Assembly: GCA_019234815.1 (NCBI GenBank)
Contig: JAFALA010000068.1
Location: 1 to 64,000, forward strand
Length of the DNA stretch: 64,000 nt
Direction of reading: 5' to 3'
From: Burkholderiaceae bacterium
GTDB taxonomy: Bacteria > Pseudomonadota > Gammaproteobacteria > Burkholderiales > Burkholderiaceae_C
Shown here: positions 11,736-17,523 of the stretch, in pieces
How positions within the stretch are numbered: the stretch's first letter is position 1
Layout of the letters: every line of letters starts with the position of its first letter
Notes under the pieces: model-generated
What the model was told of the DNA's origin: nothing
What the model saw: the letters and a program-made list of their open reading frames with translations, nothing else
Databases searched by the model: none
Made by a program: the position numbers and the translations under genes

Positions 11736-13454
11736 TCAGTGGGTGAGCGCGGTCACCCGATCCAGCCTGCTGGGCGTGGTCAGTGCCTGTGATTGCAGGT
11801 AGCGCGCCAGGGCCTCAGCATCCATGATGCCCACCACCCGGTCGCTGCCCTGGCGCAGCACGCTGAAACCGTCGCCTCCGTCGGCCAGGTAGTTGTTGAC
11901 GGTGACGCGCAAGCGCGCATCGGGCTGGATCGCTTGGCCCTGCAGGCGCAGGCTGTCGGGCCGGACGCGATGTCCCTCGGGCTGGCTGGCGTCCCAGCTG
12001 TAGCTGAAGCCTTGGGAGACCTGCAGCGGCCTGAACTTGGCTTGCCCGCTCCATTGCTGCTCCAGCAAGGCCAGAAGTTGCGCGCCCGACAGTGTCAGCG
12101 TCACCAAATTGTTAGAGAAGGGCTGGGACGTGAAGACCTGGCCGTAGGTGATGGCGCCGTCGCCCTTCCTGAGCAGGGGGGCGCGTATGCCGCCGGGGTT
12201 GGTCAGCGCGATCACGGCGCCGCCTAGCTCGGATGGCCGCGTGGCGGCCAGCTGCGCGTCGGCAATCAATTGGCCCATGCTGCTTGCGCCGGCGGCCGAG
12301 GTGGCGTCGAAGTTGTCGCTGATGTGGCCCACCACGCGCTGGATCTGCGGCGCGGCCAGCCGTTCGTAATGGCTGATCAGCCGGGTCTGGTCGGTGTCCT
12401 TGGCAAAGACGTCGTCGCGCACCAGCAGATTGCGGGCCTGGGCGCTGAGCACCGTGCCCTGGGCTCGATCGAGCGTCAGTTCGATGTCGGTCAGCACGGT
12501 GCCGTATTTGTCGCCGCTGGTGACCAGGCGTCCATCGATGCGGCAGTTGTAGGCCTTGTGGGTGTGCCCGCTGACGACCACGTCCACGGCCTTGTCGAGC
12601 TTCTTCGCGATGTCGACGATGGCGCCCGAGATACCCGGGCATTCGTTGTAGTCGCCCGTCGGATAGCCGCCTTCGTGGATCAGCACGACGATGGCATGCA
12701 CGCCCTGCGCCTGGATCTCGGGCACCAGGCGGTTGATGGTGTCCGCCTCGTCGTCGAAGCGCAGTCCCTTGACGCCGCTGGCCAGGACGATGCCGGGCGT
12801 GGCCTTGAGCGTCAATCCGATGAAGGCCACGGGCACGCCCTCGAAGCGCTTGATCTCGTAGGCAGGGAGCAAGGTCTTGCCCGTCTGCTCGACCCAGGTG
12901 CTGGCCGAGAGGTAGTGGTAGCGCGCGCCCTTGAACGGCTCGGGGCCCTGGCAGCCGTCCACCGGGTGGCAGCCGCCGTACTGCTGGCGCAGAAGCTCCG
13001 CATAGCCCTTGTCGAATTCGTGGTTGCCGACGGCGCTGAGTTCCAGGCCCATCTGGCTCAGGGCGTCGATGGTGGGCTCGTCGTGGAACAGGGCCGAGAG
13101 CAGGGGGCTGGCGCCGACCAGGTCGCCAGCGGCAACGAACACGTGGTTGGGGTTTTGCTGCATCAGCTGCCGCGCCGCCGTGGCCAGGTGTTCGGCGCCG
13201 CCGGCTGCGACCTGCAGGGCCTGGCCAGGGTGATCAGGGTCCTGGATGCGTATGCCGCCTTCCGGAGGCTTGAGGTTGCCATGGAAGTCGTTGATGGCCA
13301 GCACGGTCACCTTGACGGGCGCCAGGTCGGCCCTGGGCGTCGGCGGCACGGGCGCGCACGCGCCGAGCGACACCGTCAGGAACGGAAACAGAAATGCAAG
13401 GGCAATTCGGCTGGCAGCCAGGGTCTTGGGGCGGATGAATGACATGAGCGACAT
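11736..13454 (-). CDS. Bifunctional metallophosphatase/5'-nucleotidase (UshA-like lipoprotein)
   Basis: ITVLAINDFHGNLKPP, VAAGDLVGASPLLSALFHDEPTIDALSQMGLELSAVGNHEFDKG; signal peptide with lipobox-like LGAC. Confidence 0.9.
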   Translation of the reverse strand: MSLMSFIRPKTLAASRIALAFLFPFLTVSLGACAPVPPTPRADLAPVKVTVLAINDFHGNLKPPEGGIRIQDPDHPGQALQVAAGGAEHLATAARQLMQQNPNHVFVAAGDLVGASPLLSALFHDEPTIDALSQMGLELSAVGNHEFDKGYAELLRQQYGGCHPVDGCQGPEPFKGARYHYLSASTWVEQTGKTLLPAYEIKRFEGVPVAFIGLTLKATPGIVLASGVKGLRFDDEADTINRLVPEIQAQGVHAIVVLIHEGGYPTGDYNECPGISGAIVDIAKKLDKAVDVVVSGHTHKAYNCRIDGRLVTSGDKYGTVLTDIELTLDRAQGTVLSAQARNLLVRDDVFAKDTDQTRLISHYERLAAPQIQRVVGHISDNFDATSAAGASSMGQLIADAQLAATRPSELGGAVIALTNPGGIRAPLLRKGDGAITYGQVFTSQPFSNNLVTLTLSGAQLLALLEQQWSGQAKFRPLQVSQGFSYSWDASQPEGHRVRPDSLRLQGQAIQPDARLRVTVNNYLADGGDGFSVLRQGSDRVVGIMDAEALARYLQSQALTTPSRLDRVTALTH

Positions 13455-13729
13455 GATGCGATCTCTGTGACGACGCGAACTGTATGTGAAGCAAATGACC
13501 AAATTAACAATTGACTTGAATTTGTCGCAATGCAACAATCGCAGGATCGAAACTTCGGAGCCGCGTGCGTGGACAGTGCCAGTTGTTGCAGTGAATTGAA
13601 GCGTGCCGTGATGGCCGCGACCTGCTCAGCCGTCTGACGCCTGCTTCGTGGGCTGTCGGTCACTGAGTTGATCGACGCCTGAACCTTCGCCAGTCCCAAT
13701 CCGTGGTCTGGCCTTCAATCACCAAATAG

Positions 13730-13768
13730 CAAGAGCTTCACCCTCATTGACGAGGGCTGTGGCTCTTG
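13730..13768 (+). promoter_or_regulatory. Composite stem-loop in the 5' region of the NRAMP leader
   Basis: CAAGAGC(13730-13736)/GCTCTTG(13762-13768) perfect 7 bp enclosing CCCTC(13741-13745)/GAGGG(13752-13756). Confidence 0.5.
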
Positions 13769-13813
13769 GCGCTTGTGCGCGCATGCAGCTTTCGTCCTGA
13801 GCGGGAGTGCAGC

Positions 13814-14017
13814 ATGCAGTTCATCCATTCCATATCGTCCACGGCCAAGCCTGCGGTTCCGTCGAACCGTGCTCGGCAGCAGGACGCTGCGCCCCTTCTT
13901 GAAGCAGTCAAGGCGGTAGACCTGTCTTCGCTTTGGCCGACCCGTCGTTTGCGTGTTTGCCTGACAGACGAACGCGTGAACGGTTCCGTGCAACGCACTG
14001 CAGTGCCCCACAACTGA
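13814..14017 (+). CDS. Leader small ORF A (67 aa), unknown
   Basis: ATG preceded by GGGAG; stop TGA overlaps the SD of the next small ORF; MQFIHSISSTAKPAVPSNRARQQ... Confidence 0.45.
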   Translation: MQFIHSISSTAKPAVPSNRARQQDAAPLLEAVKAVDLSSLWPTRRLRVCLTDERVNGSVQRTAVPHN

Positions 14018-14026
14018 GGAGAAAGC

Positions 14027-14131
14027 ATGGATCCCGACCCTAGTAGGCGCACGCCGGCGCCCCCCCCCAATTTCAAACGTATTTCCGTCCAATTCATCCC
14101 GACTTGGTCGCGGAGAGTGCTGCTCGCCTGA
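14027..14131 (+). CDS. Leader small ORF B (34 aa), MgtL-like acidic-proline peptide
   Basis: GAGGAGAAAGC-ATG; MDPDPSRRTPAPPPNFKRISVQFIPTWSRRVLLA; C9 tract encodes Pro-Pro-Pro. Confidence 0.6.
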   Translation: MDPDPSRRTPAPPPNFKRISVQFIPTWSRRVLLA

Positions 14132-14137
14132 TTGCGA

Positions 14138-14173
14138 GGGTTTCTCTGTGGCCGAGTGCCCAAGGAGAAACCC
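14138..14173 (+). promoter_or_regulatory. SD-sequestering hairpin 1 (upstream of small ORF C)
   Basis: GGGTTTCTC(14138-14146)/GAGAAACCC(14165-14173) perfect 9 bp; 3' arm and adjacent bases contain AAGGAG and abut ATG 14174. Confidence 0.7.
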
Positions 14174-14308
14174 ATGTTTTGCAAACAAATCTTCGTCCGC
14201 CTGTTTGAATTCCTGCCGACCCTGCGGCATGTGACTTCGCCTCGCATCAGCGCCGCGCATGGCAGCGCCTACTGCATGCTCGTCGACCTTCACGACCTCG
14301 GTCGCTGA
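14174..14308 (+). CDS. Leader small ORF C (44 aa), unknown
   Basis: AAGGAGAAACCC-ATG; MFCKQIFVRLFEFLPTLRHVTSPRISAAHGSAYCMLVDLHDLGR; stop 2 nt before hairpin 2. Confidence 0.55.
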   Translation: MFCKQIFVRLFEFLPTLRHVTSPRISAAHGSAYCMLVDLHDLGR

Positions 14309-14310
14309 GG

Positions 14311-14340
14311 CCTCTGTATCCAGTCTCACAGATACGGAGG
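14311..14340 (+). promoter_or_regulatory. SD-sequestering hairpin 2 (upstream of NRAMP-family transporter)
   Basis: CCTCTGTATC(14311-14320)/GATACGGAGG(14331-14340), 10 bp with one U-G; 3' arm contains the GGAGG SD for ATG 14347. Confidence 0.75.
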
Positions 14341-14346
14341 AACGAC

Positions 14347-16020
14347 ATGATGTACCAGACTTCAAATGCCGTGCCGCCGCCGCGTGTCACGCAGCATGCC
14401 GTATTGGATAGCGCGCACATCGGCGACATCCGCGGCGCCTTCGGCACGATCAAGCGCGATCAGCACCTGACGCAGACGCAGCGCAGCTGGCGGCGCCGCG
14501 TGCAGACGCTGCTTGCGATTCTCGGGCCGGGCCTGATCGTGATGGTGGGCGACAACGACGCCGGCGCCTTCAGCACCTACGCGCAGGCCGGGCAGAACTA
14601 CGGCACGACGCTGCTGTGGACCCTGGCGCTGCTGATTCCCGTGCTTTACGTCAATCAGGAAATGGTGCTGCGCCTGGGCGCCGTCACGGGCGTGGGACAT
14701 GCCAGGCTGATCCTGGAGCGCTTCGGAAAATTCTGGGGCGCCTTCAGCGTCATCGACCTGTTCCTGCTCAATGCGCTGACCATCGTGACCGAGTTCATCG
14801 GCATCTCGCTGGGCCTGGACTACCTGGGCATTCCGCGCGCCTTGGGCGTGGCCGTCTCGGCGGCGCTGGTGATGCTGGCGGCCGGTACCGGAGACTTCAG
14901 GCGCTTCGAGCGTTTTTCCATGGCGCTCGTCGCCGGCAGCCTGGTGCTCCTGCCGCTGTTCGTGATGGTGCATCCGCCCATGGGGCAGTTGCTGCATGAC
15001 TTCGGCACGGTGGGCCTGCCCAAGGAGGGCAAGCTCAGCGACGTGATGCTGCTCATCATTGGCATCGTGGGCACGACCGTGGCGCCGTGGCAATTGTTCT
15101 TCCAGCAGAGCTATGTGATCGACAAGCGGATCACGCCGCGCTTCATCCCCTACGAGCGCATCGACCTCTGGCTGGGGATCGTGCTGGTGATTGCCGGCGC
15201 CGTGGCCCTGATCGGCATGGTGGCGCATTGCTTTGCAGGCACCGCCGAAGCCGGCCAGTTCAGCGACGCCCTGGCCGTGGCGCAGGGCCTGTCCAAGTAC
15301 CACGGGTCCTGGCCGGGCACGCTGTTCGCCATCGCCTTGATCGACGCCAGCGTGATCGGCGCAAGCGCCGTGTCGCTCTCGACGGCCTACGCGCTGGGCG
15401 ACGTGCTGTCCTTGAAGCATTCGCTGCACCGCAAGCCTTCGGATGCCAAGGGCTTCTACCTGGTCTACTTCGGCCTGATCGTCGTGGCGGCGGCACTGGT
15501 GCTGATTCCCGGCGTGCCTCTGGGCCTGCTGACGAACGCGGTGCAAACGCTGGCGGGCGTGCTCCTGCCCAGTGCTTCGGTGTTCCTGTTGCTGCTCTGC
15601 AATGACAAGCAAGTGCTGGGGCCGTGGATCAATGGCAAGTTCACCAATGTGTTTACGGCGGTGGTCGTGGGCGTGCTGGTGGTGTTGTCGGTGGTGCTGA
15701 CCACCGCGGTGCTGTTCCCGGACATCGACGAGGACGCCATCATCTCCATCCTGGTCGGCGGCGGGCTGGTCGGTGTGCTGATTGGCATCGCCGCATTGGC
15801 GCTGCGCGCCTTCAAGGCCGCGACGCAGGCGCAGGCGGTTCAAAACCCTGTCACCATTCTTGAGCAAAATGCCCTGGATTGGCGCATGCCTCCCTTGCAT
15901 ACCCTGGAGCAGGCGCCCATGACGCCGGCCACGCGCCTCTGGATGAGCGTGCTGCGTGGCTATCTCGTGCTGGCCGTGGGCATGGTGATCTACCGTGTCG
16001 TGCAACTGGCAGCCTTCTGA
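14347..16020 (+). CDS. NRAMP-family transporter with noncanonical metal-site motifs
   Basis: LAILGPGLIVMVGDNDAGAFSTYAQAGQNYG aligns by eye to NRAMP TM1 (GYIDPGNFATNIQAG); IVGTTVAPWQLFFQQS to TM6 (GATVMPHxxYLHS). Confidence 0.88.
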   Translation: MMYQTSNAVPPPRVTQHAVLDSAHIGDIRGAFGTIKRDQHLTQTQRSWRRRVQTLLAILGPGLIVMVGDNDAGAFSTYAQAGQNYGTTLLWTLALLIPVLYVNQEMVLRLGAVTGVGHARLILERFGKFWGAFSVIDLFLLNALTIVTEFIGISLGLDYLGIPRALGVAVSAALVMLAAGTGDFRRFERFSMALVAGSLVLLPLFVMVHPPMGQLLHDFGTVGLPKEGKLSDVMLLIIGIVGTTVAPWQLFFQQSYVIDKRITPRFIPYERIDLWLGIVLVIAGAVALIGMVAHCFAGTAEAGQFSDALAVAQGLSKYHGSWPGTLFAIALIDASVIGASAVSLSTAYALGDVLSLKHSLHRKPSDAKGFYLVYFGLIVVAAALVLIPGVPLGLLTNAVQTLAGVLLPSASVFLLLLCNDKQVLGPWINGKFTNVFTAVVVGVLVVLSVVLTTAVLFPDIDEDAIISILVGGGLVGVLIGIAALALRAFKAATQAQAVQNPVTILEQNALDWRMPPLHTLEQAPMTPATRLWMSVLRGYLVLAVGMVIYRVVQLAAF

Positions 16021-16089: not shown

Positions 16090-17523
16090 ATGTTGAAGTT
16101 TTTCAATGCGCTGCCCGGTGCGCAGCGTGGCATGGCTTTTGCCAAGATTTTTGCAACTGCATGGATGGCCCAGTCCGCCGCCATGTCGGCCATGGCGCAA
16201 TCCGACGCCGCTGCGCCGGTCCAGTCCGTGGCCTTGTCCGCGGTACCGCAGCCAGAGGCGGCAGCGGAGGCTGACGTCAAGACCGAAAGCTGGGGCTGGC
16301 ATTGGCAGGCCACCAACACCACACAGAAGCACGGTACGTTCACCTCGCCCTATAGCGGCCCGCAGAGCCTGCTGTCGGTTGAAAGCGCCAAGGAAACCTT
16401 GGACACCACCCTGTTCCTGGGGGCGCGGGTCTGGAAGGGCGGGGAGTTCTACCTGAACCCTGAGTTCGACCAGGGCTACGGCCTCGAAAATACCCTGGGG
16501 GTCGCCGGATTCACCAGCGGCGATGCCTACAAGGTCGGGCACGACACCCCCTATGCCCGCTTGCACAGGGCCTTTCTGCGTCAAACCTTTTCACTCGACG
16601 ACGGGCCCACGGAGTTCGTCGAATCCAGCGCCAACAATCTGGCCGGAACGCGGTCTGAAAACCGCATCACGCTGACGCTGGGCAAGATCTCGGTTCCGGA
16701 CCTGTTTGACGGCAACGCCTATGCCCACGATCCGCGCGCCGATTTCCTGAACTGGACCGTGATCGAGGCGGGCGCGTTCGACTATGCCGCCGACTCCTGG
16801 GGCTTCAGCTCGGGCGCAGCCCTCGAATGGGCGCACCGCGATTGGACCTTGCGCGGTGGCTTTTACGCCATGTCCAAGCAGCCCAATATGGAAACCCTGG
16901 ATGGCACATTCAAGCAGCAGCAATGGCTGCTCGAACTGGAGCGGCATTACGACCTGCTGGGCCATCCCGGAGCCGTCCGCGTGCTGGGATTCCTGACCCA
17001 TGCGCGAATGGGGCTGTACACGGATGCGGTCAGCCAGGGGCTGGCGCTCGACACCGCGCCCAATACGGCGAATGTCAGGCAGGTCGCGAACAAGACCGGT
17101 TATGTGCTCAATCTGGAGCAGGAGCTGGCGCCGGATGTGGGGGCGTTTGCCCGTTACAGCGCGAATGACGGCAAGACCGAAGCCTACGACTTCACGGACA
17201 TCAACCAGGCGCTGTCAGGCGGGGTGTCCATCAAGGGCAGCTACTGGAATCAACCCGAGCATCGCGTCGGCCTTGCCTTTGCCGTGAACGGCTTGTCGTC
17301 GCAGGCCAAGGCCTACTTTGCGGCCGGCGGCATGGGCATTCTGATCGGCGACGGCCAGTTGCCTCACTACGGTACGGAGCAGATTCTGGAGGCCTATTAC
17401 TCGGCGCGCCTGAACAAATACCTGACCGTGACGGGTGACTATCAGTTCGTCAAGAACCCGGCCTACAACGAAGATCGCGGTCCGGTTTCCGTCTGGGGCT
17501 TGCGTCTGCACGCCGAACTCTGA
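16090..17523 (+). CDS. OprB-like outer-membrane porin
   Basis: Signal peptide, WGWHWQATNTTQKHGTFTSPYSGPQSLLS...KETLDTTLFLGARVWKGGEFYLNPEFDQGYGLENTLGVAGF. Confidence 0.8.
   Translation: MLKFFNALPGAQRGMAFAKIFATAWMAQSAAMSAMAQSDAAAPVQSVALSAVPQPEAAAEADVKTESWGWHWQATNTTQKHGTFTSPYSGPQSLLSVESAKETLDTTLFLGARVWKGGEFYLNPEFDQGYGLENTLGVAGFTSGDAYKVGHDTPYARLHRAFLRQTFSLDDGPTEFVESSANNLAGTRSENRITLTLGKISVPDLFDGNAYAHDPRADFLNWTVIEAGAFDYAADSWGFSSGAALEWAHRDWTLRGGFYAMSKQPNMETLDGTFKQQQWLLELERHYDLLGHPGAVRVLGFLTHARMGLYTDAVSQGLALDTAPNTANVRQVANKTGYVLNLEQELAPDVGAFARYSANDGKTEAYDFTDINQALSGGVSIKGSYWNQPEHRVGLAFAVNGLSSQAKAYFAAGGMGILIGDGQLPHYGTEQILEAYYSARLNKYLTVTGDYQFVKNPAYNEDRGPVSVWGLRLHAEL

Follow-up and report, generated by a model that had tools for sequence, protein, structure and literature searches.

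A probable Mg2+-responsive upstream ORF leader of an NRAMP-family transporter gene, with relatives upstream of other Mg2+ transport genes

A few upstream ORFs (uORFs) of enterobacteria are known to sense Mg2+ through the instability of the ribosome. In MgtL, the uORF of mgtA in E. coli and Salmonella, an EPDP stretch causes ribosome dissociation under Mg2+ limitation (PMC11282234). In MgtQ from Salmonella, destabilizing Asp/Glu codons shift the 2:3 and 3:4 structures and free the mgtB RBS (PMC8092293). For CorL, the corA uORF of E. coli and Salmonella, more translation goes with less corA expression (PMC11552253). The M-box (RF00380) and yybP-ykoY riboswitches likewise regulate genes for Mg2+ or Mn2+ transport at the RNA level.

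Here we analyzed the leader of an NRAMP-family transporter gene in a 64-kb stretch of DNA from a Burkholderiaceae bacterium (the window; all features described below lie on the + strand). An initial annotation had proposed a candidate new attenuator, consisting of three small ORFs (A, B and C) and two hairpins sequestering the SD sequences of ORF C and of the transporter, and had neither included a further uORF, ORF0, nor recognized ORF B as MgtL-like. With MgtL, CorL and MgtQ as precedents the device is not wholly new. The leader is real and conserved, and is best understood as a further form of uORF control that responds to Mg2+, distinct from those already described. The reading we prefer, with a probability of roughly two in three, is an MgtL/MgtQ-type switch that turns the transporter on at low Mg2+.

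Comparison with the described systems shows both shared and distinct features. MgtL, a short uORF near the 5′ end of its mRNA with a DPDP/EPDP start, is a counterpart of ORF B (MDPDPSRRTPAPPP...). MgtL acts on Rho termination, whereas ORF B comes before a hairpin that covers the SD of a further small ORF; the transporter targeted is of the NRAMP type, and ORF0 adds a second motif uORF on the 5′ side. Both MgtQ and the leader have acidic early codons, and the leader may also have alternative stem-loops like those by which MgtQ releases the hidden SD of a Mg2+ transporter gene. MgtQ, with 8 codons, is located inside an operon between mgtC and mgtB and frees the transporter SD directly, whereas in the window the gated SD is that of ORF C, which stands between ORF B and the transporter in a 5′ leader. 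CorL finds a likeness in the uORFs MDPYPSW and MDPYPSR that precede corA in two genomes of the same family as the window (L183 and L195), but differs in having few acidic or proline residues and in working via Rho. The leader matched no covariance model of a known Rfam metal riboswitch, and had no Rfam match at the gathering score, the only hit being at chance level to an unrelated family (E 1.4).

The transporter (14347..16020, PF01566, SD-led) belongs to the NRMT (Mg2+) branch of the NRAMP family. NRMTs carry Mg2+, and the nearest solved structure, 7QIA (E 5.5e-50; next 1.7e-17), is that of EleNRMT, a transporter of Mg2+ and Mn2+ (PMC8806188). Helix 6 of the window protein contains VGTTVAPW, aligned to IGTTIAPW of 7QIA, and thus the TxxA motif without methionine (TxxA/T replaces A/CxxM in NRMTs), while helix 1 contains NDAGA, a DxxA in place of the NRMT DxxG. 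The window protein also has extra N- and C-terminal parts relative to 7QIA. By its sequence, the transporter is NRMT-like with one signature residue different. That its leader is held in common with Mg genes supports Mg2+ as the substrate, and because the same uORFs precede MgtA, CorA, MgtC and MgtE genes and are absent before 13 MntH genes, the signal, given as either Mg2+ or Mn2+ in the initial annotation, also points to Mg2+. Mn as the signal, or membership in canonical MntH, is not favored, given the match to 7QIA and the motif in 0/13 MntH leaders. An OprB-family porin gene (16090-17523) lies directly 3′ of the transporter gene, possibly in one operon.

The sole promoter-like site in 13440-14400 is a sigma-70-like element (TTGACT-17-AACAAT with TG ahead, 13511..13539), and a TTGAC / (C)AACAAT-type element occurs at the equivalent place in most of 12 related leaders compared. 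Thirty nucleotides 3′ of the predicted promoter is ORF0 (MDSASCCSELKRAVMAATCSAV, GTG GAC AGT GCC AGT TGT TGC AGT..., 13569..13637, SD GGAG at 13557-13560), which begins MDSASCC. Homologs of ORF0 are present in 11 other leaders, where they end 330-529 nt 5′ of the ORF B start; in the window, the stretch from ORF0 to ORF B is 389 nt and includes an extended structured spacer. ORF A (13814..14017, 67 codons, SD-led) ends 9 nt 5′ of ORF B and carries the C-terminal motif WPTRRLR. A motif of the W[PST]T[RH]R[LIV]R type, or close to it, is found near the C terminus of ORF A in the 11 related leaders having ORF0, and there is little conservation of ORF A outside this motif among the 12 sequences. The motif might reflect a peptide of the arrest type or a constraint on the RNA. 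Promoter, ORF0, ORF A and ORF B follow one another in this order in 12 leaders including that of the window, and the cassette in full, with hairpin 1 and ORF C after ORF B, is found again 5′ of NRAMP-type Mg transporter genes and mgtA. The positions initially annotated for ORFs A, B and C, each with its own SD, and for the transporter ATG at 14347 were all correct.

ORF B (14027..14131, 34 codons, SD GAGGAG at 14016-14021) has the N terminus MDPDPSRR, which closely resembles that of E. coli MgtL (sequence from the K-12 record). An acidic/proline destabilizing motif of the EPDP type is thus present in its first codons (MDPDPS), while MDSAS of ORF0 fits only partly, with one acidic residue and no proline. 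ORF B and ORF0 are both short SD-led uORFs in the leader of a gene whose product probably transports Mg2+. Among the 281 SD-led small ORFs of the window, just two contain the motif, namely ORF0 and ORF B, which are 458 nt apart. Five close relatives agree in all of the first six residues of ORF B except for the start codon; pooled over the whole length of ORF B, their pN/pS is 0.82.

The codons of the motif are also biased. In 46 uORFs, Ser in the motif was encoded by AGT in 64/83 cases, compared with 125/2076 in the transporter genes downstream; the corresponding fractions were 18/26 and 21/265 for Cys as TGT, 29/59 and 114/1816 for Pro as CCT, and 10/20 and 66/1904 for Arg as CGA, and Asp was GAC in 50/51 cases. 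The genomes are GC-rich, yet the uORF starts use the rare codons AGT, TGT, CCT and CGA, with strict GAC. Motif residues replace one another among D, S, P, G, C and R through changes at codon positions 1 and 2. The motif seems constrained at both the peptide and the codon level.

Hairpin 1 (14138-14147 with 14164-14173) begins 6 nt past the ORF B stop, covers the SD of ORF C, and ends 0 nt ahead of the ORF C ATG. It had been described as a perfect 9-bp stem, and has 10 bp when one closing U-G pair is included. The predicted fold (−22.5 kcal/mol, z = −4.1) was matched in stability by 0/200 shuffles, in line with the initial view that it is unlikely by chance. A hairpin over the ORF C start was found in 13/13 homologous loci, including mgtA and NRAMP-type leaders and leaving out L199 (mgtC), L200 (mgtE) and the corA leaders, with individual z-scores of −4.9 to −0.7. 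Its 5′ arm starts 4-9 nt past the ORF B stop, its 3′ arm ends between 1 nt before the ORF C ATG and 2 nt into it, and the distance from the ORF B stop to the ORF C start is constant at 37-46 nt. The stem letters differ greatly, as in GGGUUUCUC/GAGAAACCC in the window, CGGUGUCUCC/GGAGAUACCG in L193 and AAAACCUC/GAGGUUUU in L182. Among six in-register sequences, both sides changed in 6/10 pairs, and the covariation score was equalled by 0/500 shuffles and by no slid version. These compensatory changes support the part of the attenuator proposal that has ORF B controlling ORF C by way of a hairpin over the ORF C SD. No such hairpin was present in the first 75 nt at L199. Strong hairpins immediately follow the seven-codon uORFs 5′ of corA in L183 and L195, with arms that differ yet are complementary (GCUUCCA.../...UUGGAAGC and GCUUUCGAC/GUCGAAAGC).

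A candidate anti-sequestor at the 3′ end of ORF B (14103..14117) is able to form a stem with 14144-14156; the stretch involved takes in the stop codon of ORF B as well as the hairpin 1 5′ arm. For a transcript truncated before the 3′ arm, the computed probability that the 5′ arm is paired with ORF B was 0.94 in the window; over 13 loci of truncated transcripts the mean was 0.75, compared with 0.53 when ORF B was shuffled, and the pairing was absent from the truncated-transcript fold of L192. At equilibrium in the window, exposing the ORF C SD costs 5.5 kcal/mol with the ORF B end free and 12.6 kcal/mol if ORF B is covered. No drop in this cost on freeing ORF B was seen for L008, L001 and L002 (the same leaders as L192, L193 and L201). 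Even with the ORF B end free, hairpin 1 stays the favored fold at equilibrium. The anti-sequestor as an equilibrium switch is thus not supported by these cost calculations, and a switch operated by the ORF B end, though plausible, would need to be kinetic. Of the two mutually exclusive stems expected for an MgtQ-type device, the sequestering stem is conserved and covarying, and the competing stem is preferred only in truncated transcripts.

ORF C (14174..14308, 44 codons, SD-led) has homologs in close relatives, and we infer that it is translated only once hairpin 1 opens. Its pN/pS is 0.19-0.49 among the three closest relatives, and longer relatives of 111-139 aa have weak, below-cut-off similarity to MgtE_N or FliG_M. 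This selection, together with the weak MgtE_N likeness, suggests that ORF C may encode a working small protein. The long versions (L184, L016, L182, L205) look like one small-protein family. In L191, L194 and L198, a protein of ~230-260 aa without a Pfam or NCBIfam match is encoded at the ORF C position, after ORF B and hairpin 1. A relation of ORF C to YnfA/UPF0060 was rejected as a weak, chance-level hit.

Hairpin 2 (14311-14320 with 14331-14340), over the transporter SD, is present as initially described, though much weaker than hairpin 1. Its fold (−14.1 kcal/mol, z = −1.4) was matched in stability by 16/200 shuffles, and the claim that two such hairpins are unlikely by chance does not extend to it. 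No such stem was found in the five relatives checked (L189, L192, L193, L201 and L184), where the ORF C stop is 18-27 nt ahead of the transporter start, compared with 38 nt in the window. Hairpin 2 was therefore rejected as a conserved element, and with it the part of the attenuator proposal that relied on it. Given its absence from relatives with a short gap between ORF C and the transporter, the second step is more simply explained by plain translational coupling.

To find how widely the motif occurs, we searched for SD-led uORFs with the pattern M..[DE][PSG].[PS][SC]. Since this pattern was drawn up after viewing these leaders, the antisense and shuffle controls outweigh the raw count. The motif uORF was present 5′ of 50/96 NRMT-type relatives of the window transporter, which are not mutually independent, compared with 0/96 in antisense and 0.3/96 in dinucleotide shuffles; in canonical MntH leaders of Burkholderiales it was present in 0/13. 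The loci with motif uORFs span beta-, gamma- and alphaproteobacteria, and the uORFs of two actinobacterial loci (L072 and L053) look alike. A nucleotide pattern for the MDSxS uORF, run against 349 genomes of the order, also gave copies 5′ of mgtA genes (TIGR01524, E 1e-153 for L103), and the strict motif was found in 6/70 Burkholderiales mgtA leaders, compared with 0.5 after shuffling.

The ORF B pattern, with one mismatch allowed, was run against 401 genomes of the family and gave 20 sites in 19 genomes, compared with 3 for a reversed control pattern. Six sites are 5′ of NRAMP-type genes (L182, L188, L189, L192, L193, L201). Because the search pattern was derived from an NRAMP leader, only non-NRAMP matches count as independent evidence; these are 5′ of mgtA (L184 and L185, and with one intervening gene L191 and L198), corA (L183, L195), mgtC (L199) and mgtE (L200), with the gene families confirmed by profiles. 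The motif uORF is thus associated with Mg2+ transport genes beyond the window locus. At L194 the cassette is present, with no mgtA found within the stretch covered. One clear exception to the association with Mg genes is the RND efflux operon of L205 (also L197; G999), which is preceded by an MDPDPSS uORF, a hairpin and a long ORF C. The sites L186, L187, L190 and L196 were dismissed as chance or unrelated matches.

We propose that transcription begins ahead of ORF0, and that the transcript would bear two motif uORFs, ORF0 and ORF B. The opening codons of both, D-[S/P]-x-[S/P]-S/C (acidic, Pro, Ser, with mostly rare U-ending codons), would destabilize the early elongating ribosome at low Mg2+. 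With enough Mg2+, ribosomes would finish ORF B and cover its 3′ end, hairpin 1 would fold over the ORF C SD, and ORF C and the coupled transporter would be off. At low Mg2+, ribosomes would abort within the first codons of ORF B, and its free 3′ end would pair with the 5′ arm of hairpin 1; with this arm captured, the ORF C SD would be exposed, ORF C would be translated, and the transporter would follow by coupling to ORF C. ORF0 is probably a first sensor of like kind, acting on transcription or on ORF A. The direction of control, with the transporter probably turned on under magnesium shortage, is suggested by the import function of the gene products and by the behavior of MgtL, CorL and MgtQ.

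Besides the small share of Burkholderiales mgtA leaders with the strict motif and the cassette before an RND efflux operon, one point of geometry counts against the proposed switch, namely that a ribosome terminating on ORF B would abut the foot of hairpin 1, giving the opposite sign. As the initial annotation proposed, a ribosome finishing ORF B might then open hairpin 1, reinitiate on ORF C and go on to open hairpin 2, in which case expression would need complete ORF B translation and would drop when ORF B is aborted. The hairpin is within reach of such a ribosome (4-9 nt past the ORF B stop), the spacing between the ORF B stop and the ORF C start is constant, and hairpin 1 is too stable for displacement at equilibrium, all of which would suit this relay; however, aborting ORF B at low Mg2+ would shut importers off under Mg2+ scarcity, a senseless outcome for CorA, MgtA, MgtE and NRMT, hairpin 2 is not conserved, and efficient translation of mgtL or corL represses in E. 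coli and Salmonella, so that we consider the relay unlikely. A somewhat better prospect, though still a minority one, is control of the kind used by mgtL and corL, which act via Rho (PMC11282234, PMC11552253): translation of ORF0 and ORF B would set the access of Rho to downstream RNA, and hairpin 1 would chiefly be a Rho roadblock or an mRNA stability element. The long ORF0-to-ORF B stretch with its structured spacer, and the place of ORF0 as the first motif uORF of the transcript, agree with this, and Rho control of the ORF0 part is possible, but in 13/13 loci hairpin 1 has the end of its 3′ arm at the start codon of ORF C, which fits translational control.

A further point against the MgtL/MgtQ-type switch is that many copies of the motif (MDSxS, NDGPS) have a single acidic residue, which makes classical ribosome destabilization less obvious for them. 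Conceivably, the conserved start is instead a motif in the RNA or a signal at the codon level (GAC AGU NNN AGU NGU / GAC CCC GAC CCU AGU), read as RNA or via weak wobble decoding, with the peptide incidental. The bias towards AGT, TGT, CCT and GAC relative to the transporter genes, and the confinement of residue conservation in ORF B to the first codons, argue for such a signal; we nevertheless find it doubtful, because the residues stay D, S, P, G, C and R while codon positions 1 and 2 vary (AGT, CCT, TCT, GGC), strict GAC is at odds with weak wobble, and no Rfam family matches the leader. We regard it as very improbable that these uORFs are just ordinary small genes, with hairpin 1 as a brake on translation that is not regulated: ORF C is under some purifying selection and its longer relatives are weakly MgtE_N-like, but the same ORF B start precedes five transporter families and conservation is poor past the first codons, unlike in a conserved protein.

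The MgtL/MgtQ-type switch would extend the idea of ribosome instability to a conserved Burkholderiales cassette before NRMT and MgtA genes, with related Burkholderiales uORFs before MgtC, CorA and MgtE genes and similar ones before NRMT-type genes in gamma- and alphaproteobacteria and in actinobacterial sequences. It would also assign Mg2+ as the likely substrate to a large NRAMP group annotated merely as divalent metal transporters. Tentatively, these uORFs might constitute a new phylum-crossing Mg2+-sensing class, with D-[SPG]-x-[SP]-[SC] in rare U-ending codons, that controls several unrelated Mg2+ transporter families, has tandem sensors in many Burkholderiales and perhaps also senses through codon-anticodon strength, which, if true, would be a mode different from the known acidic/proline ribosome destabilization. 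The natural peptide series MDPDPS, MDSxSS, NDGPS and MDPYPS offers a probe of which sequence makes the ribosome Mg2+-sensitive, and of whether rare U-ending codons contribute. We found no earlier description of the motif or of such Burkholderiales leaders in the open-access literature, subscription papers being mostly beyond the reach of the search.

The arrangement of the uORFs varies among the loci. In alphaproteobacteria, NRMT-type genes are preceded by just one uORF, of the MNDGPSR or MDEGPSC form, ~150 nt 5′ of the gene (L023, L025, L032, L040, L050, L051, L052, L055). Tandem motif uORFs occur in Paraburkholderia (MDSCSSRP then MPDPEPC) and in Aquitalea relatives (MPSDSC then MDPYPSS) (L033, L034, L035, L041, L059; L003, L004, L084-L086, L089). 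In L100, L101 and L206, a uORF starting GTG GAC AGT TAT AGT TGT lies 5′ of an operon encoding an ABC transporter permease and ATPase, a candidate Mg-related importer.
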